Positions 50,108 through 64,000 of a stretch of 64,000 bases of DNA are shown piece by piece. The position numbers were made by a program, and so were the translations under genes. Where the stretch lies: the NCBI GenBank assembly GCA_009192285.1, contig CM018604.1, positions 1,984,001 through 2,048,000 of the forward strand, written 5' to 3'. This stretch comes from Morchella semilibera (lineage: Eukaryota; Ascomycota; Pezizomycetes; Pezizales; Morchellaceae). The notes beneath the pieces were generated by a model. It did no database searches and had not been told where the DNA came from. It saw only the letters and a program-made list of their open reading frames with translations. Each line of letters starts with the position of its first letter. Position 1 is the first letter of the stretch.

Positions 50108-50691
50108 ATGAACGGCCAAGGAGGTGTCGGGTTCGGCATTGGAGGAATGGGTGGGGGAGTATCTGGTGGCGGCGGGGGAGGCATGCCGGGAGGGCAGGAG
50201 AATAGCAGACTCTCACAGATCGTTTTACACGAACTCAAGTCGAAATGGAACCCTCAGGGCTGGCAGCAGGAGATGACGCCCACGGAGCGCGCGAATACTA
50301 TTCTTCAAATGTACTGGGCTCTTTTTTCTTTCTATTATGTTCCCGTTGCTTCGTTCTGCCTGATTCTATTCTATTTGAATTTGGATGTTCCCCCCCTCCC
50401 TTTTTTCCCCGGGGGCGACTCCGCTCTTCGGGGGGCGGGAGGCGTATATGCTGTTTTTCTTTCTTTTCCTTTCCCTTTCCTTCCCATCCTCTCTCTTTTC
50501 TCGCTATCTTTCCGCCTTTCCCCTTCTTCGACTGGGCCCATTTTCTGAAAAGTGAATAGCGAGAGCTAAATGTTTATGACCCGGATAGCGCTTCGTCATT
50601 ACGGCTAGTACGGACAGAAGTTGAACAGGCGCACGCCATAAAAATTGCGACTACATTTGAACAGGCAACATATGATAACGCCGCTGATAAG
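50108..50691 (+). CDS. Mediator subunit Med15/Gal11-like, 5' fragment only
   Basis: Only the first two exons are present: 50108-50310 and 50589-50691 (102 codons). A Gly/Met-rich start is followed by a KIX-like helical segment: GWQQEMTPTERANTILQ, then ASSLRLVRTEVEQAHAIKIA and FEQATYDNAADK. This resembles the N-terminal KIX domain of fungal Med15/Gal11, the activator-binding tail subunit of Mediator. The exon 2 acceptor at 50588 follows a CTAAAT branch site and is the only one that keeps phase. Intron 2 starts at 50692 with GTACGC, but 11 bases later comes the ambiguous base at 50703 and unrelated repeat-associated sequence. The remaining several hundred codons expected of Med15 are missing, most likely through an assembly join rather than biology. 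Confidence 0.6.
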
Positions 50692-50702
50692 GTACGCTTC
50701 CA

Positions 50703-50703
50703 N
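50703..50703. other. Ambiguous base N at a probable assembly junction
   Basis: This is the only non-ACGT base of the window. The plus-strand Med15-like gene is cut within its second intron on the left, and the minus-strand zinc-cluster-like ORF is cut inside its coding frame on the right. Sequence character changes here from single-copy to repeat-rich. Confidence 0.7.
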
Positions 50704-51048
50704 ATCCTCTTCATCGGAGAGGAGACTAATGACTGATCGCTTAAGGGCTCGGGGGTTTAAAGAGCATTTGCGACCATTACGTAAACAGTTGTTACAGGAG
50801 GAGATGACTCGGTTGGTAGGATCAAGTTTCTGCACACAGAACTCGCGACCACGATCTTGTAGAGCAGAAATACATGTTGTACACATAGGAGTATTGATTT
50901 GTATAGAGTTATGGAGGCTGGGTAAACGAAAGGCACGATCAAGCCAATCAGCTCGATGTTTATTGATAAATTTGTCCCAAACTGGCACTCCATTACGGAC
51001 AGGCCAGGAGGGGGTAGAGGAGGTAAAGGAGGTAGAGGAGGTAGACAT
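50704..51048 (-). CDS. Cys6 zinc-cluster-like hypothetical protein, C-terminus missing
   Basis: The frame starts at 51048 (MSTSSTSFTSS, context ACAATGT; an in-frame ATG also lies at 51084) and remains open to the N at 50703, so about 115 residues are visible and the rest is lost. After a Ser/Thr-rich start comes VPVWDKFINKHRADWLDRAF, then six cysteines spaced C-x2-C-x11-C-x13-C-x2-C-x6-C. The second half (CNNCLRNGRKC) has the spacing of a Zn2Cys6 half-site, while the first loop is longer than in Gal4-type clusters. An acidic LLSDEED follows. I do not know the family; it lies beside the satellite array and is likely a repeat-associated gene. Confidence 0.5.
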
Positions 51049-51102
51049 TGTTGTTGCTGTCAAAAGGAGGAAATATGAAGGCATAAGCCATATTATATAG
51101 CG

Positions 51103-51420
51103 CCGGGTTTTTACTCTTTCCTGTACACGCGCTATGTACAGGCGTCACACTCAATCGTTGACACAGTGGAAGAATGAAAGCACTGACTTTTTAGCTTCAT
51201 TCTGAGCATAAATGCGCCAGTAGCGCAAAAACTGACGGAGATATGAACCTTTTGACTAATGCAGAGTCCATTGCAAATTAGTCAAGGGTTTCATATCTCC
51301 GTCAGTTTTTGCGCTAACCTGGCGATTTATGGCTCAGAATGAAGCTAAAAAGTAGTGCTTTCATTTCCATGTGTCAACGATTGAGTGTGACGCCTGTACA
51401 TAGCACTGTACAGGAAAGAG
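51103..51420. repeat. Head-to-head inverted satellite units
   Basis: One satellite unit in reverse orientation (about 51103-51258) faces the first forward unit (about 51279-51433). The centre is TTGACTAAT-(about 17 nt)-ATTAGTCAA. Both arms carry CTGACGGAGATATGA / TCATATCTCCGTCAG, TTTTTAGCTTCATTCTGAGC and its complement, and the ACACTCAATCGTTGACAC segment. Confidence 0.85.
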
Positions 51421-53070
51421 TAAAAACCCGCCACTATAGTCAAGGGTTCATAGCTCAGTCAGTTTTTGTGCTAACCTGGCGATTCCTGGCTCAGAATGAA
51501 GCTAAAAAGCAGTACTTTTATTTCCAGGTATCAACGATTGGGTGTGGTGCCTGTACATGGCGCTATCAAGGAAAGAGTAAAAAACCCGCCACTATAATCA
51601 AGGGTTCATAACCCAGTCAGTTTTTGTGCTAACCTGGCGATTCTGGCTCAAAATGAAGCTAAAAAGCAGTACTTTTATTTCCAGGTGTCAACGATTGGGT
51701 GTGGTGCCTGTACATGGCGCTATTAAGGAAAGAGTAAAAAACCCGCCACTATAATCAAGGGTTCATAACCCAGTCAGTTTTTGTGCTAACCTGGCGATTC
51801 TTGGCTCAAAATGAAGCTAAAAAGCAGTACTTTTATTTCCAGGTGTCAACGATTGGGTGTGGTGCCTGTACATAGCGCTATTAAGGAAAGAGTAAAAACA
51901 TGGCGCTATTAAGAGAAGAGTAAAAACCCGCCAGCTAGATAATCAAGGGTTCATAACCCAGATCAGTTTTGCGAGTACGACTATACAAAAATGGACGATT
52001 CTTGGATCAAAATGAAGCTAAAAAGCAGTACTTTTATTTAGCCAGGTGTCAACGATTGGGTGTGGGTGCGCTGTACAATTGGCGCTAATTTAAGGAAGAG
52101 AAAAAACACCGCCACTATATTCAAGGGTCATAACCGCAGTCAGTTTTTGTGCTAACCTGGCGATTCTTTGGCTCAATAATGAAGCTAAAAGCAGTACTTT
52201 TAATTTTCCATGGTGTCAACGATTGGGTGTGGTGCCTGTACAATGGCGCTATTAGGAAAGAGTAAAAAACGCCGCCACTATAATCAAGGGTTCATAACCC
52301 AGTCAGTTTTGTGCTAACCTGGCCGCATTCCTTGCTAAAATGAAGCTAAAAAGCAGTACTTTTATTTCCAGGTGTCAACGATTGGGTGTGGTGCCTGTAC
52401 ATAGCGCTATTAAGGAAAGAGTAAAAAACCCGCCACTATAATCAAGGGTTCAGTTTTTGTGCTAACCTGATCATTTTTGGCTCAAAATGAAGCTAAAAAG
52501 CAGTACTTTTATTTCCAGGTGTCAACGACTAGGTGTGACGCCTGTACATGGCGTTATTCAAGAAAGAATAAAATCCGCTACTATATTTGAGGCTGCATAG
52601 CTCAGTCAGTTTTTATGCTAACCTGGTAATTTTTGGCTCAAAATGAAGCTAAAAAGCAGTACCTTTATTTCCATATGTCAACGATTGGGTGTGATGCCTG
52701 TGCATGACGCTAGTAAGGAATTGGTAAGAAACCCGGCACTATAGGAATCTATTAGTCAAAGCTTAATAACTCAGTCAGTTTTTGTGCTAACATGGGGATT
52801 TTTGATGCAGAATAAAGCTAAGAAGTACTGCTTCACCCCCATACCATAACGGTTGCGTGGGACGCTTGTGAATGTAACCATTCAGGAAATAGTAAAATCC
52901 CGCCACTATAGTAAAAGCCTCATAGCTCAGTCAGTTTTTGTGCTAATCTGGCAATTTTAAGCTCAAAATGAAACCAAAAGATAATACTTCACCCCCACAC
53001 TACAACGATTATGTGTGACGCCTGTACATGACGCTATTCAGGAAATGGTAAAAATCCAGTACTATAAAAC
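51279..53070 (+). repeat. Satellite array, about 157-bp unit, about 11 copies
   Basis: Direct tandem repeats begin at TCAAGGGTTCATA-like boundaries near 51279, 51440, 51598, 51755, 51943 and onward. Each unit contains CAGTCAGTTTTTGTGCTAAC, AATGAAGCTAAAAAGCAGTA, CAACGATTGGGTGTG and CTGTACATGGCGCTAT segments. Spacing is 157-158 bp in the best copies. Copies from about 51880 to 52340 carry many isolated one-base insertions and deletions. Copies after about 52580 diverge by substitution. No coding capacity is apparent. Confidence 0.9.
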
Positions 53071-53334
53071 TCCATGCCGCTGAGCCTTACTATTTCCTGA
53101 TTAGCACAATGCATAAGTATCAATTCATATTGTTGAAATTGGTAAATAGAAGTACGCATTTGTAGCTTTGTCCTGAACTACTAATCGTTACGTTAGCATA
53201 AAAACTGACTAAGATATAAGCCACTACGAATAGGCATCTGATATTATAATAGGACTTAACAAATCAATCATATCAATTTTCTATATATAGCAGTAACATT
53301 CCCCAATATTCATACCATATCTTAAATATTCTGT

Positions 53335-54966
53335 ATGGATTATCGCAAATCTCGCAACACACTCGGTCGCCTCGATGATGCTAGTAAGCCGTGTCGCTGA
53401 AACTGGCGGAGGAGAATCTATCGGCTTCGGTCGCCTCGATGATGGCTAGTAAGCGTGTCGCTCGAACGCAGAGAGGATTCACATCGCCTTCGTCGCCTCG
53501 ATGATGCTAGTAAGCGTGTCGCTGAACGCGGAGAGAACTCTATCGCTCTCGGTCGCCTCGATGATGCTAGTAAGCGTGTCGCTGAACGCGGAGAGAACTC
53601 TATCGCCTTCGGTCGCCTCGATGATGCTAGTAAGCGTGTCGCTGAACGCGGAGAGAACTCTATCGCCTTCGGTCGCCTCGATGATGCTAGTAAGCGTGTC
53701 GCTGAACGCGGAGAGCATCACATCGCTCTCGGTCGCCTCGATGATGCTAGTAAGCGTGTCGCTGAACGCGGAGAGGATCATATCGCATCGAATCGTCACT
53801 TTGCAATACGTCGAAATCAAAACAAACAACTACTTGGATCGCAATACCCAACGTCAAAATCGTAAACTCGCAAAACGCAACAAACGCAAATCTAATCGCA
53901 AGCTAGAGATCGATATCGAACGGAACTCAGCTCTGGATTTCATTGATAAGAAACCAGAAGGTAATTAGATTCTATATTGATATTATCAACTCTACTAATA
54001 CCCCTCTTCTTAGATGTTGAATCGGAATCGGTATTTCTCATGCATCGTAAACGGGACGAAAAGATCGCTACGGAAATGTTTGGGAAGGAATGGACATATA
54101 ATGATACTATCTGGAATGATCGCAAATTTAAACGAATTATCGGAGACCAATCGAAGACGGTATACATTATCGATTCGGCTTCCCAGAGAAGTTCGAATAA
54201 TCTACAAAATTAACTCTCTTTTAAAGATCTCGCACCGGAACGCTTATCGGAACTACAATTTAACTTCAATTATGTTCAAAAAGATCAAAAATTTCACTCA
54301 GAAATTAAATGCAATCATGCCCAGACTGGGTGGTGTCATGAAATCTAAGGATATCGCGCCGGAACGGAATCGGGTTGGGATTTCGGTACATACGCAATGA
54401 ATAAAAACATATGTCCAGATACACTATCTGAACATTTCTCGCAAGCGCTACGATTTCATCGCAATCTCGGTAGAAGCTTTCTCGATATGGCACCGGCATT
54501 CTTTCGGCAAAGGCAACAGCAAGTCCGGGAACTAAAGCTACCACTCCTCGGCATCGATTACGGAACGGAGTCGGCTATATTCTTAAAGAATGAGACTCTT
54601 TTCACACCACAAGTTGCTTATACCTATGGTGGATTTCGGAATAAATCGCACCGAGACAACGATGTCTCTAAATATACATCTGGAATATGGGCACCTATTC
54701 GGACATCGGACGGTTCGATCGTTCGCTTCTCTGATGGCTACAATTCCTATGGACACTTCTTCTACTGTACTATCTATAAAACGCTAATTGATTTCGCAAC
54801 GATCGATGGAATTACGGAGATCGTTTGGTGTGGTCCGGAGGATGATCACGGTACCGCAACGGGCGGTTTCGGATCGGGATTTACAAGATATGCAACTACA
54901 TGTCAAGTGAATAAACAGCTAAATATAAGAGTACAAATGCTATTCAATAGGGGTAGCAAATGTTAA
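53335..54966 (+). pseudogene. Tet-like 2OG-Fe(II) oxygenase with N-terminal 20-aa repeats, disrupted
   Basis: Reading starts at MDYRKSRNTLG (53335), enters seven 60-bp units coding RLDDASKRVAERGENSIAFG-like repeats, then a basic linker (QRQNRKLAKRNKRKSNRK). An intron of about 50 bp (53961-54013) follows, then VESESVFLMHRKRDEKIA and the C-terminal domain to 54966. The domain resembles fungal Tet-like 2OG-Fe(II) oxygenases: AYTYGGFRNKSHRDND (HxD), GIWAPI, GSIVRFSDGY, IVWCGPEDDHG (second His) and FTRYATTCQV (Arg). Such enzymes are related to TET/JBP hydroxylases of methylated or modified DNA bases and are often transposon-associated. Lesions: extra bases in the first two repeat units, one frame change between about 53790 and 53815, and TAA codons at 54211 and about 54349 in the otherwise open frame. 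The first TAA could be removed by a 36-bp intron. Family assignment is from memory. Confidence 0.5.
53366..53790 (+). repeat. 60-bp tandem repeat, 7 copies
   Basis: Units begin at GTCGCCTCGATGATG near 53366, 53429, 53489, 53551, 53611, 53671 and 53731. The last four are exactly 60 bp apart and nearly identical. The first two carry single-base insertions. The period is a multiple of three, so the coding frame is kept. Two forward frames are open through the array; the one giving a charged RLDDASKRVAER repeat matches the codon style of the following exon. Confidence 0.92.
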
Positions 54967-55740
54967 GATAATGTAGTTAGATTGAAGGAGTTGTTAGAAG
55001 GATTACCGGAACTTCGTAACGGAAATATCGATCTGCTTTGTAGTTCAGCATGTATTTTAAATGGAAAGATTGTATAAGATAGGATTTAAATTAAATTATC
55101 GCATCGATCGGATTCCCGATCTAGGCTAGATTCGAAGATTCATAATCGCAAATCTATTGAGTAGACATATATATATATTGATTAATCCAAGAAAAAAAAT
55201 AACATAATTTAAATACAACCTATAGCAAAAATATTTCTTTTTCAAAAACAAATATAGGAATGAAAAGTTACCGTCACAATTCTTCTGATCGCTCTAAAAG
55301 TAATAGAGATATTAGCTTCTGATATTCATGATCGTAATATTGATATGATCAATACAGATATTTCAATACGTACATTTTAAGGTGTACCTTGACCCGATGG
55401 ATATGGGGGTGGGGTAATACTGGGTTCATTTAGGTTCTGGTGATCTCATCTGTATCGAGAATCTGCTTACTCTTTCCTTCGGCAGATTTACTCTCTTTCT
55501 AATCATCGTCATCATTAGATGCGGCTTCAACTCTTTGTCAAATTATTAATTTCGCATTTGTTATATTATTTGCTTGTTGAATTGTCTTCTTCTTCGGATC
55601 TTGCGAGTCTCATCTATATATAGAGAATTCCATAGTAGTAGAAAAAATAAGTTATAAAGAATTCTTATCCATATATATGTTCGTAATTCATCTTTTGAAT
55701 AAGTCTCATAGATGCTCCTGAACGTGATGGCTTCGATCAC
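54967..55740. other. AT-rich spacer in the repeat region
   Basis: About 770 bp between two convergent repeat-associated genes. It is AT-rich, with a short TATA run near 55170. No gene was recognised. Confidence 0.4.
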
Positions 55741-56844
55741 TCAAGTATTTTTAGTCGTGTATACGTAGCTAAGAAATATTTCTATTTTAGTACTTGAAAA
55801 ACTAATTCGATACCAAGCCTTACCCTAAAACATCTTTGTTTTTGTACCCAAAATGCCCCAATTGTTTTGCTTTCGTTGGATTTCCTAATGATATTCGACG
55901 TAAATTATACCATATGGCAGTCGAAACTAAACAAATAAATTTATGATTTATTTGTTCAAGAAATATATCATCTTTTCGAACTCGTCCGGTGGTATCATGG
56001 TAATATATATGGTATATTAATTCAATCAATTCGGGAGCTAAAAAATAGAATTTAATATCCTATATGAGATAATTATTAGTTTTTTTGCTAATTTTTATAA
56101 AGAGATCTGATTACCTCGTAATGCTTTGGTTGACATAGGAATCTATCTTTATACAAAAGATATACTGCACGTTCAGTTTTTTTCTCTGTGGTTGATAGTT
56201 CACTGAATCCGTATAGTGATCTTTCCAGTTTTGACTTCATTCGATTGAGTAATCTAGATTTCGCATAAACATGAAAGTCTTTCATCTTGTAAAATTAATA
56301 ACCATTTATTCAAGTAATGGAATTTATAACCTACAATCTTGAGGTAGGTGTTACTTAGGATCGGGGGATCCATTTTGGCTTTGGTTGCAGATTCCTGCCA
56401 TATTTTTTGTAATGCAAGATTCAACGGATCTGGAAGACTAAATGGTTCCATAAGGAATGTATATGCATCAACTCCATCATTTGCGATCTTCAAGATTGTT
56501 TGGATTTCTGGTGCTTGATCTTTTAAGCGGTACGAAGGTCTTTCAAGTTGGCTCATGGTAGTTATTTCGCTACTGCCTGTAACAGATTCTGGAAATACGG
56601 GTGCAGAAATAGATGAAGAAGAGTTCGTAGCATCTGCTTGTGCTTGTAGGAGCCATGCATTAATATCATCGGAAGTACGACGTGGATGTGCTTGCTGGCA
56701 TCATACCGTCCTGTCTCAAGGAGTCATTGCGTGACGAGTTTCTGGTTCTAATTGGCATGTGATGAAATGTAGTTCAGAATTATTGTTATATTGGTATACC
56801 TCAGACGCTGATGTAAGTGATTTGGGTAAATGCTTCTTCGACAT
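55741..56844 (-). CDS. DUF6532-like hypothetical protein, 5 exons
   Basis: Exons: 56844-56800, 56694-56335, 56285-56115, 56059-55824, 55768-55741 (279 aa, all phases consistent). The introns have GTATAC, GTAGGT, GTAATC and GTAAGG donors, and CTAAT/CTAAA-like branch sites. The middle exon has INAWLLQAQADATNSSSS, then a helical region (PEIQTILKIANDGVDAYTFL). The C-terminal third, CQPKHYEDIKFYFLAPELIE and INHKFICLVSTAIWYNLR, resembles the DUF6532 domain expanded in fungi, often near transposons. Function unknown. The start is uncertain: another frame upstream (EYDEEDSARIYSRNILGG, about 56850-56920) also looks coding, so a longer N-terminus or a frame error is possible. Codon use is AT-richer than in the left-hand genes. 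Confidence 0.5.
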
Positions 56845-59800
56845 CGTGATCTCCACCTAGTATGTTTCGGGAATAGATCCTAGCTGAATCTTCTTCGTCG
56901 TATTCAATATGATCCAACACTCCATTGGCTCAGCACTGAAAACTGAAAGAATTGTAGTTGAGGATGCGGCTGAGGTTCACGGGGGATTGTGAGTATCTTC
57001 GGATTGTGCATCGTCATCTAAGAAATAGTAGGGTGGAATGATTTGGCGTATATTCTTGGCTTTTGATTATCCGGTAAGTAAGAGTTTCAGCAACTCTTGA
57101 TTGCATTGAACAATTGTTTGAGCTATATGGGTAAGATAAGGGGATCTAGATCAACGTAAGTATGGGTTTTGGGGAAACATCTCAAAGTATCCTATTTATT
57201 GTACGATTGAGATTTGACTTTAGTCTACCTTGGGTCCGTGTTGATTTTTTATGAGAAACGATTTGCTCGGGCATTGATTGATGTCCTGTAGAAAGATAAG
57301 TCGCTTAAATTAATGAAAGGAATGATTGGGTACAACCGATGCCTTTGGAGTTGTTATATGATACGCTTTTAACTTTAGTTCGAAAATGATTTGAGGTATG
57401 AAGGACGAACAGATAGCGATGTGCAAAGAATCTTATATTAAATATATACATATCATCAAGAATATTATAAAATTCAAGTAAAATATCAGATGATATAACT
57501 AAATCCGGTTGATGTTTAGGTGCTAGTCTATGTGGAAATGTATAATAATTGTTAAATGCCTGAGACTTTGCTGCAACTTATTACGCAACTAATCTATACT
57601 TATTTTTACTTCTTCTAATTTATTCGCACTTTATTACTGTGTATCCTTGCTTATTTACTCCCACTTTTATTTCATGATGGGGGCGCTGATCTAATTCTGC
57701 GATTTTGTGGGCTAGCATGCAGGGGAATATCAGTACGTTAGTTACGCCTATTAGCTGTTAATCCGTACTTATCTGTATATTTATCCGGCACTTTTTGATT
57801 ACAATATTGCCGTGGCTTATTTTGCTTATCCTTATCTTGTTGAATAGTTTTTTCGTAAATATTGATGCCAGTCATGAGTTAACAGACTTGTAACTACTCA
57901 AATGGGTAGCTGTTAAGCAATTTCCGATTATTTGATAGTAGCCATGTTTGTAATTGACCTGCTTATCTAGTACTTATTCCTACTTTCCATAACTGTCTTG
58001 CGGCATATAGCTTTTCTTTTACTTGATTTTATTTGTCTATTACTTATTTTCTAGTTGGTTGCCACGTATTCATACTTGCTGGCACTTGCTGCCTGCTTAT
58101 CCTTGCTTATTTTACTTGATTTTCCATGTTAGGCTTTTTTTATTTTTTGCTTCTTCTCTTTAAGTGGATATGTTATATTTATCTAAGTGGCTTATATGTA
58201 TGTTCTACCCTAACGGTAATACAAGACATTGTCCCGTACTATTATTTTTAATTCTCTTCGCTATTTCCATTTATCTGGAGTGTGATTCCCACTATTGCCT
58301 ACTTGCTGATACTTTACTGCGTATTTATTTTTACTTATCCCATTATTTCCAGTATATTGATGGCATAATTTTTTCACTTAGCGGGGTTTTCTGGATATAT
58401 TTATAGTGCATGTACTTTATGAAGACATTATTTCGTAGCCTGTCACGCGTTATCATGCTTCTTTTACTTGCCCGGCAGCTGTACGAGGACTTTTTTTCCG
58501 CCCTTTTTCCCCGACTTTTATAGTATGAGGCATTTTTTTCTCCCCGTTAGTGCGTACAGTTCGATTATTATGTACATTGTAATATGTAAGCTCTTGAAAA
58601 ATCTTATCCCGTGTTTCTATTTATAGTTATTGGTATATAGTTATTCTTGCTTTTCATTACTTGTCCGTATTTGTCCCTGGTTATCCTCATTTATTCCTAC
58701 TTACTGGTATTTATTGCTACTTCTTCCTACTTACCGGTTATTTTTTTCATATATTCTGGCACTTTCTTACCTGACATGTGTTATAATATGTGTTGCTACC
58801 GAAAACTAACCTGTGTTTCTATTTATAGTTATTATTATATAATTATTCTTATTTATTTCACTTCTTTGTATCTATTTCTATTTACTCCTTCTTATTCTTA
58901 CTTGCTGGTACTTGCTTCCACTTATTCCCGTATATTGCTGCTTATTGCCAAATACTGAGTTACTTTCCTACTTAATATAATATATTATTCATTATATAGG
59001 TGATAAATATGCATATACTATCCTAACGGAGTAATATATTTGTCTATATTTTTCAGTTTGTTGATGACTATTCTCATCTACCAGTACTTATATATACTTA
59101 ATGGTACTTTCTGGTATTTATCCGTATTTATTCTTACTTGCTAGCACTTATCCGTACTTATTCTACTTGATAGCACTTATTCGCTATTTATTTCTACTTA
59201 TCTCTTTTTTATTTAAATAAGAATAATTATATATGATAAAAGTAACTGATATACCCTTAGTATCTAACGGCAAACGCAAGATAAACTATTTTCATGAGTA
59301 TGTATCCCTATTAGCTACTCACAACTAACGCATATTTTGTTAGGTTAGTTTTCAGCGTATCTATTATTTATTCCTTACTGTCAAGGTTCTTTTATCTTTA
59401 ATTGTAAATTTTTATATTTATTGAAGCATTTACTAACTACATCAATGTTATATTCTACGATACGATATACTATTATGCGCATTATTGTATTCTCGTTTAC
59501 CGGTATAGTAAGACTAATGCTTACCCGTATACACTGAAGCCAGGAGAATAGGCGGAGTATCATATGTATGCATATCAGTAGTAATTTTTGTACCATTACT
59601 GGAATTTACCTGTATCTATTGAAGTTATAAGAACACATACAGTATTATATGTACACCCGTCATTCTTAATTATTCTAGCAATACCAATACCTATCAATAT
59701 TCACTGAAGTTATTAGAACAGGCAAGGTAGATTATTTATGCCTATTGGTATTAATTGTATAGTTTTAAAAAAACTTAAATCAAAGTTACCGAGCGCTTCA

Positions 59801-59900
59801 TACAATTATTATACAAATATATATAACAATAATATACTAACAATGTTTGTTCAAATAGCAATCATTTCCATCGTTGATACTCTCGTACCGCCTCCTGATC
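56845..59900. other. AT-rich, degenerate low-complexity region
   Basis: About 3 kb without a clear gene. From about 57590 to 59210 the plus strand is dominated by degenerate units of 10-12 bases such as TACTTATTCC, TACTTGCTGG, TATTTATTCC and CACTTATTCC, giving spurious Tyr/Leu/Ile/Ser-rich frames. The flanks (56.9-57.5 kb and 59.3-59.9 kb) are AT-rich with scattered short frames. Confidence 0.55.
57590..59210 (+). repeat. Degenerate TACTTATTCC-like repeat tract
   Basis: Many diverged copies of TACTTATTC(C/T), TACTTGCTGG and TATTTATTCC occur without fixed spacing, often as adjacent pairs (for example near 58680-58740, 58860-58960 and 59080-59200). I see no strict period, so an old expanded simple repeat or minisatellite is the simplest reading. 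Confidence 0.6.
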
Positions 59901-60395
59901 AACTTTAACTGCAGCAACATGAAAAGCACTTATCTCTACATCGCATAGCTTTTTTGGCACGACTCAGAGCTGTATATGCTTGCCCAACAGAAAACATGGA
60001 ATCATCAAAACTTATACATATTTTATTCAACGATAAGCCCTGTGTTTTATGAACTGTTAAGGCAAATGCGTTTTGAATAGGAAGTTGTGTACGGGAATAA
60101 CGGATTCCGTGACTTCGAAAATGTATTGTATCCTTTGAAACTTCAACAATCTGTATTTGTTAGGATTATATATAATTATCGGATGGATAAGCTTACTCTA
60201 ATACCCTCATATGTTGGGAAAATGCAACATTTGGTAGACCACCTTCCCGTAAAGATACAATAATACCACATGTCCCATTAGATATACCGAGCGATATTAA
60301 ACCATTTGTTAGAAACATGACTTTAGCTCCTGGAACACAAACAACCTCATATGGAAAGTTTGTGCCGGTTTTTGAAGGTACGAGAATATTCCATA

Positions 60396-61399
60396 CTAGA
60401 AATGATTTCTCCTTCTTCCCGATCGGATAGAGATATGTGTATATGAAGCCTCAATCGGTAATGTTTCGAGGAGAAGGTGATTTATTTGTGATGCCGTCCT
60501 CCGATAGGATACAAGAAATGTTGTAAGATAACTGGTATTACGAATATGAAATTGTTGAACTTTATCTTGTAATATAGCTTGACTTTGAGGAGTGATTCGT
60601 CTAAACCGTAAGTCGTTGAGTAGTTGAAAGAACTCTGGATCATCTCGTTGACGCATGGATTGTTTTAAAAGATTGGTTTAAAGAATTGCCACAATGTTGA
60701 ACGGAAGACCTTCTGACCCGATACCGGCGGAAGTTGCATTAAATCTCCCATACAAATGATATGTAGATTTCCGAAAGGTTTCAAGTTATTATGTATCCTT
60801 GCAAACAATCCAGACATAAAATCTAATAACTCTGCGTTCACCATCGATATCTCATCTATTACCAATATTTTTATACGCCGTATTTCTTCAAGCCTATCGG
60901 GAAGTTGTAAGAGATTTGACTTTAATATTCCTCCATCTGCACCTATGTTCAATGCTGAATGAATGGTTTGACCTGATATATTATTCGCCGCAATACCAGT
61001 TGGTGCAAGCTTGAGGTATTTGAAGTGATTGACGTCAAAACCAACGTTCTAATGCCTTTAAGAGATATGATTTCCCTGTACCTGCAGATCCGGTAATGAA
61101 GAATTTAAGGCTAATACCGCCGGTAGGAAAGTTGAAAGTGATTGAGTGATTTTCGTATATGCATAATATTGATCGCCCTGTAGGTTGAATACCGCCTCGT
61201 TGTTTTGAATCGGAGTGGGTAGTTGTTGCATTTCAAGAAGTTGTTTTCGGACAATCTCTTGGACAGATTCTTCAGACATTGATAATACAGCTTCTATCAA
61301 TTCTTGATAAACGCTGGAGATATGTAGTGTAGTCCGTTGTGTTCCTTGTTGGTATATACGTTGAACTTGTTCGTACATATCAGGAAATCGCTGTAGCAA
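60396..61399 (-). pseudogene. Helitron PIF1-type helicase segments in broken frames
   Basis: Three partial frames carry the helicase: 61399-61058, 60952-60665 (LVIDEISMVNAELLDFMSG and MGDLMQLPPVSGQKVF) and 60656-60396 (MRQRDDPEFFQLLNDLR). The Walker A peptide FFITGSAGTGKSYLLKAL is in a different frame from the block directly before it (frame change near 61110-61140). A TGA at about 61036 interrupts the path to the following NIGADGGILKSNLLQLP block. The terminal PIF1 motif lies further left, near 59950. Intron splicing could repair some junctions, but I find no good GT-AG pair for the Walker A one. Confidence 0.65.
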
Positions 61400-61781
61400 A
61401 TGCTCTCGGTAATTGAGATAACCCCATGTATCTCATCATCAGATCGCCAATGCTGAATCTCCAATAGTTTATTAAAGAAGAATCCCTCTCCATCCGCCAA
61501 TCGTCTATAACATGTTCGGATCATAAGTGGCTACCACAAATTAGCTTTACACTTGATAGAGATAGAAATGTAATTGGTAATATACTTTTTTCCGTTGATA
61601 AATAAAATTACCCAACTTATCCATCCATACTTCAGTCTGTGACCGCCGACGGGTGCGTTCGATTTTGTAAAGTGAATGTATTTGAAGTACGTAAGATGTT
61701 CAAAGATGATATTTTCTGGTCGATTGAAATACTTTTCAATTGCATCGGGGTAGAAAATATCTTCAGATGTGGGATCAACTT

Positions 61782-63389
61782 CTAGCAACCAGCGGGTTTG
61801 ACTACGCTGGAACGATCTGACGGCATTGATGTAGGTAGATAAACACATGAACTTGACATTTGAAAGATTGGAAAGCTTAAGAGTAGGACCATAGATTCCA
61901 TAGATCCCATTCTTCGAGCAAGCAGGTGGTCATTAGTATGACTTAAGCTATTGACGCTGACGATAGATTTTGGCTCTGCCTTGGTAACATATTTTGTTAT
62001 GTATTTAGCTAAACCACCAGAGGTACAATATTGTACGTTGCAATGTGCTCCCCATAATAGCAATAGCCTAGGACTGTATGGAACGATATACCGGTCCTCC
62101 TCTTTAATTCTCCTATATGTATACCTAATTTCTCCTTCCTTTTGGTATGTGAGATTTGAAAGTTCCGCAGGAAACCCTTTCCTACACGTTCCAGCCTCAT
62201 CCCTACTCCCACCACATAGCCTAGGTTCACATGAATGAACTTGATGTTGAATTACTAAAGCATATAGTTCTGGTTCTGTATCGGAGTTTGGTAGGTCGGC
62301 TCGAATAAAATTTTGCTCGATGAGTTGATTCTGTGTTAACTCGGACCACAGAAGTGAGTGTGTATGTATTGCCCCCCTCAGTTGAAATTCATGCCGTTCA
62401 ACTAACTCATTTAAACGTCCAAAACCTGATACTGAAGGGATCCGGAAAAAAGATTTTTTAATCCAATGCCAACGTTCGTAATAGTACTGCACAGCATCCC
62501 ATGGTCGATTTGAAGGCAATATATCATGATTCCCCGTTCGTTGTAGAATGTTTCGGTAATCACTCCATTGTTCAGAAAATGTAGTAGTAACGAATAAAGT
62601 AGGTATTCCATGTGTCTGTAACATACATCGAACATTACTTTCTGCGTTCAGAAAAAATGTATTACCTGTCCGTATGAATCGTGGAATGGTTGTGGTTAGA
62701 TGTTCATTAACGATAGACCATGGACCGTATTGACTCTGTTGTAATAGTTCAGCAGCAGTATGTCGTGAATGTGCACCTCTTTCTTGATATCCTTTAACAA
62801 TACGGCAGTTATTTTGCAGTATTCTAATCGCCTCAATTTCCATATATATCCATGGTCCCCAGTAATGATCATCACGGAAAACAGATATAATTGAGCTGAG
62901 TTTGATTTTAGCATCGGTAGCCATGGTATTTTTAGAGCAGATCGTATTTGGTTGCCGAATTGAACGTATATACTGTCCTCTACCCCATGGATATAAGACT
63001 GGAAAAAGCAAGGCTTCCAAAGCGGGATCTGATCGTTGTATTCCAATACGTTCACCTGAATTGGTAGAGGGAAGAGATGCAACTGGCAATCGAAAATATC
63101 GATGATCTTCATTTGCAACCTGTGAAGGATAATTGAAAGGGTTTAAAACTATATCGGGGCGGTTCCAAGGTCGTGTTTCATCCGTATTTGAATCAGTACT
63201 TGAAATTAAAGAAACTGTAGGTAAAGGACTAAGTTGCAGCTCTCTTCGTATATCATATCTCTGAAAAAGTATATTTTTAATAACAACTGCGACCACAATT
63301 CCCAAAGCTTCTTTCCCGGTATCATGAAGATTGAATCGAATTGATTTGTTGGAACCCCAAGATAACCTCCAAAAATTCCGGGTATACAC
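61782..63389 (-). CDS. Helitron Rep endonuclease domain, ORF segment
   Basis: The longest open segment (535 codons) of the Helitron gene. It encodes the replication-initiator (Rep) domain that nicks and joins single strands during rolling-circle transposition. The catalytic HUH metal-binding pair (His-Thr-His) and both tyrosines (Tyr-Ile-Thr-Lys-Tyr) are intact. The upstream part, PALEALLFPVLYPWGRGQY and the RDDHYWGPWIYMEIEA-type block, matches the Helitron-like N-terminal domain. The last about 40 codons (after LLARRMGS) continue in this frame, but the next conserved block (YFNRPENI) is in another frame, so the true product changes frame near 61800-61850 by splicing or by mutation. Confidence 0.85.
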   Translation of the reverse strand: MYTRNFWRLSWGSNKSIRFNLHDTGKEALGIVVAVVIKNILFQRYDIRRELQLSPLPTVSLISSTDSNTDETRPWNRPDIVLNPFNYPSQVANEDHRYFRLPVASLPSTNSGERIGIQRSDPALEALLFPVLYPWGRGQYIRSIRQPNTICSKNTMATDAKIKLSSIISVFRDDHYWGPWIYMEIEAIRILQNNCRIVKGYQERGAHSRHTAAELLQQSQYGPWSIVNEHLTTTIPRFIRTGNTFFLNAESNVRCMLQTHGIPTLFVTTTFSEQWSDYRNILQRTGNHDILPSNRPWDAVQYYYERWHWIKKSFFRIPSVSGFGRLNELVERHEFQLRGAIHTHSLLWSELTQNQLIEQNFIRADLPNSDTEPELYALVIQHQVHSCEPRLCGGSRDEAGTCRKGFPAELSNLTYQKEGEIRYTYRRIKEEDRYIVPYSPRLLLLWGAHCNVQYCTSGGLAKYITKYVTKAEPKSIVSVNSLSHTNDHLLARRMGSMESMVLLLSFPIFQMSSSCVYLPTSMPSDRSSVVKPAGC

Positions 63390-64000
63390 GCATAGCTCTA
63401 GATTTCTGGTAATATCTCTACGGTTACGTTAACGATATGTTGAATATGGATTGTGATTATTACTATAACTTTGGTACGACCTAAATTGGTTTGCAATGAT
63501 ATTGGTGATAGAAATATCCGGAGGAGCGTTGAGGAAGAGGAAAAGTAGCCGGCGGCATGGTCTGCAAGTTGTGGCAACCGTGTGGATTGATTGCATGAAC
63601 TACAGTATTGCTATAAAGTTCAATATCGTTTTGAGTTTGGTAGTAGGAAGGAAATCAAGTATAGTAGATAATGTATATACTGCATCTTGTTGTTTTGGTA
63701 CCCATTTAATATGTCTTTCTAACATCAATGTACCACAAAATGCACATGGTGTATCAGGAAAAGATTTGTTGTAGTTGGTTTTGAATCGTTGAATGAGGTT
63801 TTGAAAGAGACGATCAGGAGTAAAGATAATTGGCTCTCGTATTTCTAGAGGAACTGAAGTATACGATGACTGAATAGATTGCCGTTCTGATTGATGTTGC
63901 GCAGATTGAATACGAATACTCTGATTATGTTGTTGAATAAATCGGTATGTAGAAAATAAACTTCCATCATGATCAATCAAGTCGTCAGAGTTGACAAATA

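Follow-up and report, generated by a model that had tools for sequence, protein, structure and literature searches.

Does a Helitron in the genome of an edible morel encode an enzyme that could erase the methylation placed on it by its host? The question is raised by a 64,000-nucleotide stretch of Morchella semilibera DNA (hereafter, the window), in which an initial annotation had described a charged-repeat protein with a TET-like dioxygenase domain in a transposon island. The observation is confirmed by our analysis and the interpretation supported, with amendments given below. Among the copies compared, W denotes the window copy, C2b the copy at C2:3583836, C2c that at C2:1431563, C21 that at C21:2451582 and C21h the element at C21:535765.

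Gene structure and oxygenase domain

Comparison with sister copies led us to read the TET-like gene as two exons on the forward strand, spanning 53335–55019 (Table 1). The initial annotation had placed it at 53335–54966, of which the start was retained: 53335 is the ATG of exon 1, where the C11 and C21 copies read MDYRKSRNTLGRLDDA, and the same start site is present in C2b and C6 and differs in C4, C1 and C19. The remainder required correction, with 54014–54400 having been read partly in the wrong frame and 54966 being merely the end of a frameshifted frame in the window copy, whose coding stop falls at 55017–55019 when aligned to C11. Between the exons we infer a 53-nt intron, whose region in the window copy is identical to C11 and whose GT and AG are conserved in all eight copies aligned fully across it (C11, C4, C21, C21h, C2b, C6, W and C1; C7 and C19 were aligned over part only).

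Exon 1 runs from MDYRKSRNTLG through 20-residue repeats (for example, GRLDDASKRVAERGEDHIAL) into a basic linker, with isoelectric points of 5.5 for the repeat unit and 11.5 for the linker. The repetitive N-terminus claimed previously corresponds to a 60-bp tandem array, and its copy number varies from locus to locus. Allowing at most 5 mismatches in 30, we counted repeat cores over the first 6,000 bases per stretch, where short indels hide some of them, and obtained 11 in C2b, 5 in the window and C19, 3 in C4, C21, C21h and C6, 2 in C11, 1 in C1 and 0 in C7 and C2c, with 3 in the left stretch of C7. The repeat ORF also matched YadA_head (25.6 bits, cut-off 25), which we attributed by judgement to the repeats themselves. 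The diverged gene copy C2c (L023), 73% identical over 105 aa, carries a related N-terminal repeat that by eye has a 22-residue rather than a 20-residue period.

Table 1 Features of the Helitron block and TET-like gene in the window
Feature	Position	Strand	Basis or remark
Single N, left limit of Helitron block	50703..50703		Assembly letters
Helitron block, portion within window	50704..64000		Continues to an N beyond the window; CTAG end missing
156-bp tandem array, upstream of oxygenase gene	51282..53053		TRF: 51282-51898, 51998-52743, 52753-53053
Exon 1 of TET-like gene	53335..53960	+	Open as one frame in C11, C4 and C21; disturbed in window copy
60-bp tandem repeat encoding 20-aa units	53362..53775	+	6.8 copies, 90% matches
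Predicted intron, 53 nt, GT...AG, internal CTAAT	53961..54013	+	Inferred from sister-copy alignment
Exon 2, Tet-like 2OG-Fe(II) oxygenase domain (PF20515)	54014..55019	+	Profile match and C11 alignment
Element ORF without Pfam match	56254..56700	-	Also in C11 (L015:6508-6996)
Helitron Rep/helicase gene	60396..64000, on past window end	-	Frameshifted in window
PIF1 helicase	within 60665-61048	-	Pfam profile
Helitron_like_N	within 61785-63428	-	Pfam profile

Exon 2 encodes 335 aa and carries the oxygenase domain. A search with the Tet-like profile PF20515, as the initial annotation had proposed, yielded 97.2 bits (E = 1.7e-27, curated cut-off 27) for the 189-aa window frame at 54397–54963 and 125.8 bits for the 98% identical protein of C11, covering profile positions 2–209 of 211. 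Genome-wide, the profile, which we take to be centred on rust proteins, produced 12 matches at 10 loci, every one above the cut-off, and it matched none of 14 control genomes, all of them prokaryotes. The three motifs noted previously (SHRDND, EDDHG and FTRYATT) were all found in the window, and in C11 numbering the residues are H212-R-D214 (the HxD), a distal H278 and R291, in TET/JBP order, with the arginine of this HxD...H...R motif being the residue expected to bind 2-oxoglutarate. Excluding C19 and C2c, which lack that stretch, the H and D of the first motif are conserved in 8/8 copies (the middle codon is a stop in C7), as is the motif arginine, while the distal histidine is conserved in 7/8, the exception being C6, which is full of short indels.

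Searches of other collections returned no significant PDB chain by sequence (best E = 0.29), no NCBIfam match at E values up to 1 and no PHROGs match better than E = 0.059; three stretches of viral contigs fitted a pattern and none encodes a relative. A further genomic hit at C5:1129069 (28%, E = 0.08) was set aside as a chance match. It is very improbable that the protein is not a TET/JBP enzyme at all, its resemblance being fortuitous or that of a distant 2OG oxygenase in repetitive DNA: exon 1 is of low complexity, but the score and extent of the C11 match, the conservation of metal- and 2OG-binding residues across copies and the lack of matches in the prokaryotic controls all argue against such a reading.

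A gene inside a Helitron

The proposed association with a Helitron holds, although the gene lies inside the element rather than next to it, its sister copies sitting between shared ends. The suggested paralogue search recovered copies with an open exon 2 in C11 and C4 flanked by shared Helitron repeats, and the gene loci have flanking homology in common (alignments >120 bp, among the matches listed). Assignment to the Helitron superfamily follows from a Rep HUH domain together with a PIF1-type helicase, both of which were detected (PF14214, 50.3 and 48.1 bits; PIF1, 64.3 and 107.5 bits), and within the same gene we take AIHTHSLLW to be the HUH motif and YITKYVTK the two-tyrosine motif. The Rep/helicase gene is open in C11 as frames of 845 and 450 aa, and it is antisense to the oxygenase gene at all seven paired loci (W, C11, C6, C1, C7, C2b and C2c); at the C4 copy, the nearest Rep match is 29 kb away on the same strand and was taken as a separate element. 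Additional element ORFs without a Pfam match over the cut-off were seen at L015:6508–7404 and L025:4498–5109, both on the minus strand.

At one end of the element, all five termini inspected read ...CCCTAG followed by TT, with the motif occurring at nine exact places in the genome and its reversed control at none. The opposite end starts with TTAAACATAC in the three copies read, a motif found at 12 places with at most one mismatch (control, 0). Seven elements (C1, C2b, C6, C7, C11, C21h and C22) have the two ends correctly oriented on a single contig, 14.7–27.9 kb apart, with the C11 element occupying 307177–321923. The PF20515 domain was matched within five of these seven and the 156-bp array in all of them; in C21h a clean gap deletes the catalytic domain and leaves exon 1, and the C22 element has no PF20515 match. 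Correspondence between paired contigs (C21/C22 near 536–557 kb and C12/C13 near 0.93 and 1.01 Mb) suggests uncollapsed assembly duplicates. One element carries the 5' end motif twice, at C7:101142 and C7:101256, 114 bases apart. An extra CTAG end lies at C19:3008773, where 473 bases of the terminus align, with no gene match in the adjoining 7 kb and no array match.

Canonical Helitron1 elements begin with 5' TC and end in CTRR followed by T, with a hairpin just before the 3' end. The CTAG followed by TT agrees with this 3' end, but the three copies read at the other end have TTAAACATAC in place of 5' TC, and we therefore classify the element at the level of the Helitron superfamily, its 5' end being non-canonical. 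No hairpin was found at the CTAG end of the one copy folded, C11, where 194 of 200 shuffles of the 101 nt folded at least as well (z = +1.68). The base preceding TTAAAC was A, A and T in the three copies read, canonical Helitron1 insertion being described as occurring between A and T (PMC5148889).

Upstream of the gene lies the 156-bp array, which appears to be peculiar to this element: a 315-bp array query had at least 52 matches in the genome, and all 52 listed fell inside 10 loci of this Helitron (the window, C2b, C6, C11, C19, C1, C21, C7, C21h and C22). Exon 1 or its remnant sits beside the array in 9/10 of these, C22 being outside this comparison, and at C7 the array adjoins exon-1 remnants about 11 kb from the oxygenase match. 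No array match was obtained at two of the 10 gene loci, C4 and C2c. Array matches in C1, C7, C19 and C21 are 68–75% identical to the query and exon 2 there is 85–96% identical, figures that provide no clean rate comparison given that C11 array units differ among themselves (74–96%). Units occur in both orientations at L015:2560–3711, and in C1 and C19 the array runs the opposite way with respect to the gene.

Condition of the copies, selection and cytosine decay

The window copy is frameshifted, which probably reflects unpolished long-read error rather than decay. Aligned to C11, the window block shows 368 indels of 1–2 nt against 91 substitutions over 12,023 bases, a ratio of about 4:1 that makes gene breaks inside it untrustworthy, with extra-base stretches (233) exceeding missing-base stretches (145). 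The same comparison gave short indels and substitutions of 4:181 for C4 (3,862 aligned bases), 4:112 for C21, 4:197 for C1 and 52:444 for C7, while C2b (112:72) and C6 (47:19) are window-like, so that their gene breaks are likewise unsafe. Given the few indels in C4, C21 and C1, decay was not accepted as the first explanation for the indel-heavy block, and the window oxygenase copy is probably not dead. The assembly was made with PacBio RSII reads, DBG2OLC, FALCON and SSPACE, according to its published description (PMC7014384).

Chromosomal placement of the Helitron block rests on scaffolding, its right limit being a single N at L026:1653, 1653 bases past the window end. On the left, a host gene at 50108–50702 ends abruptly at the N, with no right-hand continuation seen by eye; it contains the conserved-looking stretches ENSRLSQIVLHELKSKWNPQGWQQEMTPTERANTILQMY and RTEVEQAHAIKIATTFEQATYDNAADK, gave no Pfam match on its short first piece and is presumably MED15-like.

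Elsewhere, exon 2 contains neither indel nor stop in C11 and C4, one stop in C21, five in C1, four in C7 and one inserted base in C2b. Amino-acid changes are in deficit across the element copies, with pairwise dN/dS in exon 2 between 0.15 and 0.39 in 32/36 pairs, which are not independent of one another. Pairs involving C11 illustrate this: C4 (0.23, Fisher P = 4.9e-4), C2b (0.17, P = 2.3e-3), C21 (0.30, P = 6.8e-4), C19 (0.23, P = 7e-11) and C1 (0.37, P = 3.7e-5). The four outliers were C11–C6 (1.28, from 2 synonymous versus 9 other changes), C7–C19 (0.60), C6–W (0.57) and C11–W (0.47).

These values bear on whether the oxygenase is passive cargo, a captured gene of no use to the Helitron whose copies survive through youth. 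Helitrons are able to capture and copy genes, the catalytic domain has been lost from C21h and is unmatched in C22, and in-register stops interrupt C21, C1 and C7. We nonetheless consider such a history unlikely, since dN/dS is 0.17–0.37 between C11 and 6/8 other copies, including the 85%-identical C19, and among the seven two-ended elements the catalytic domain is matched in five and the array in all.

We also counted C>T changes by context, leaving out C19 and C2c and using those positions where four or more copies were present and no more than one disagreed. A clear CpG excess was confined to the old, stop-bearing copies C1 (CpG 20/121 versus CpA 15/288) and C7 (CpG 32/255 versus CpA 39/457), the direction of change in C7 being poorly known (119 C>T versus 115 T>C); C21 showed little excess (CpG 12/282 versus CpA 11/357) and C4 none (CpG 6/304 versus CpA 14/416). 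Highest C>T at CpG in C1 and C7 is as the decay of 5-methylcytosine (5mC) would give. Repeat-induced point mutation (RIP) was rejected, with no concentration of C>T at CpA in any counted copy, the nearest being C4 (CpA 3.4%, CpT 2.9% and CpG 2.0%). For the C11 element, observed/expected CpG was 1.0 overall, 1.49 in exon 2 and 0.66 in the array; elsewhere it was 0.86–1.3 in parts of four other copies and 0.80 in window positions 1–50000.

Probable anti-silencing role and comparison with known systems

The host is an ascomycete, as had been surmised: its RPL3 most closely matches 7r81, 8oo0 and 7olc, which we take to be Neurospora and Chaetomium-type ribosomes. Six PF00145 matches in the genome were read as three cytosine-methyltransferase genes. 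One, a near-duplicate on C12/C13 (best PDB match 9bap, 1.3e-62), is presumably DIM-2-like, that at C19:2291173 (best PDB match 7r76, 3.1e-166) is presumably DNMT5-like and the third, at C19:4046008, we liken to RID/Masc1.

Against this background, the Helitron probably uses its TET/JBP-class dioxygenase for anti-silencing. The element carries the gene near its CTAG end, antisense to Rep/helicase; the protein would oxidize 5mC on element DNA with Fe(II) and 2-oxoglutarate, host methylation would thereby fail to keep the Helitron silent, and the repeat-plus-basic N-terminus may hold the protein on DNA. Escape from methylation has also been argued for TET-bearing transposons by Kojima (PMC12730594), who describes the function of transposon-borne fungal TET genes as 'not experimentally validated'. 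Several observations count against the anti-silencing reading: the C21h element and its near-duplicate C22 persist without the catalytic domain, four dN/dS pairs depart from the others, C4 and C21 lack a clear CpG excess and no solved chain in the PDB was matched closely.

That last result would also suit a TET-fold oxygenase that instead modifies 6mA, thymine, RNA or protein, or that adds another group (cf. CMD1), and so is not a 5mC eraser. Alternative activities are left open in Kojima's account (PMC12730594), and the residues Gly (or Ser) 331 and Asp337 of CcTET and the AG-type enzymes correspond to Val and Gly in the morel protein by plain offset from HxD, with no structural alignment. 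We regard this alternative as quite unlikely, as the profile places the protein in the TET/JBP class and the excess of C>T at CpG in the two oldest long copies makes it likely that 5mC is available as a substrate. For the favoured anti-silencing by 5mC oxidation, one edible morel offers young open, old decayed and enzyme-deleted copies alongside host methyltransferases, making the idea directly testable.

TET-carrying Helitrons of Pezizales have already been published (Kojima, December 2025; PMC12730594), and the morel element is a further, well-preserved case. That account, which describes TET-bearing Helitron1 families in five species from four Pezizales families including Morchellaceae, overtakes the statement in the initial annotation that such genes expanded mainly in basidiomycetes. 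Among the matches listed in open-licence literature, judged by title and the opening of the abstract, no further paper dealt with morel TET-carrying Helitrons, and none was found under the Pfam name of PF20515. There are two misfits with the published account as available to us: HxD instead of HxE, and a variable 156-bp array beside exon 1 found only in this element, the words 'tandem repeat' being absent from Kojima's main text (PMC12730594).

The closest published relatives are the PE-type Helitron1 elements (PMC12730594), which share the order, name Morchellaceae among their hosts, carry a TET/JBP gene and occur in Pezizomycetes or Agaricomycetes, a range that the morel fits. Their hallmark in the paper's description is HxE, whereas the morel protein has HxD in every copy holding that stretch and is set apart accordingly; an HSE does occur at residues 94–96, 184 residues ahead of the distal histidine. 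The PU-type TET/JBP genes of rusts, carried by Helitron1 and other DNA transposons and including five TET-bearing Helitron1 families in Puccinia graminis, share HxD with the morel protein, but Kojima limits them to Pucciniomycetes and the morel host is an ascomycete (PMC12730594). Like the morel gene, AG-type TET genes and CcTET of Coprinopsis, the latter reported to oxidize 5mC and 6mA, are fungal, transposon-linked and have HxD (PMC12730594, PMC13297926), but they differ at the two positions noted above. If HxD is upheld against Kojima's alignment, either the hallmark of the PE type has been drawn too narrowly or ascomycetes have acquired a different TET lineage.

Two further systems resemble the element in other respects. 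FoHeli of Fusarium oxysporum are likewise fungal Helitrons with non-canonical ends, but are described as Helitron2-like and end in ATTTT or CTCCTGT, whereas the morel element ends in CTAG (PMC5148889). VANC of Arabidopsis is an element-encoded anti-silencing factor whose targets are often tandem repeats varying between related elements, which recalls the 156-bp array, but its abstract mentions no oxygenase, unlike the morel protein (PMC5735166). By analogy, we offer as a guess that the oxygenase is carried to the Helitron's own 156-bp array by its N-terminus, whose 20-aa repeats and basic linker would bind that DNA; though unlikely as it stands, such a self-addressed eraser would represent VANC-like, sequence-specific anti-silencing built on an enzyme, in an HxD TET lineage that Kojima's survey, as described, does not give for ascomycetes.
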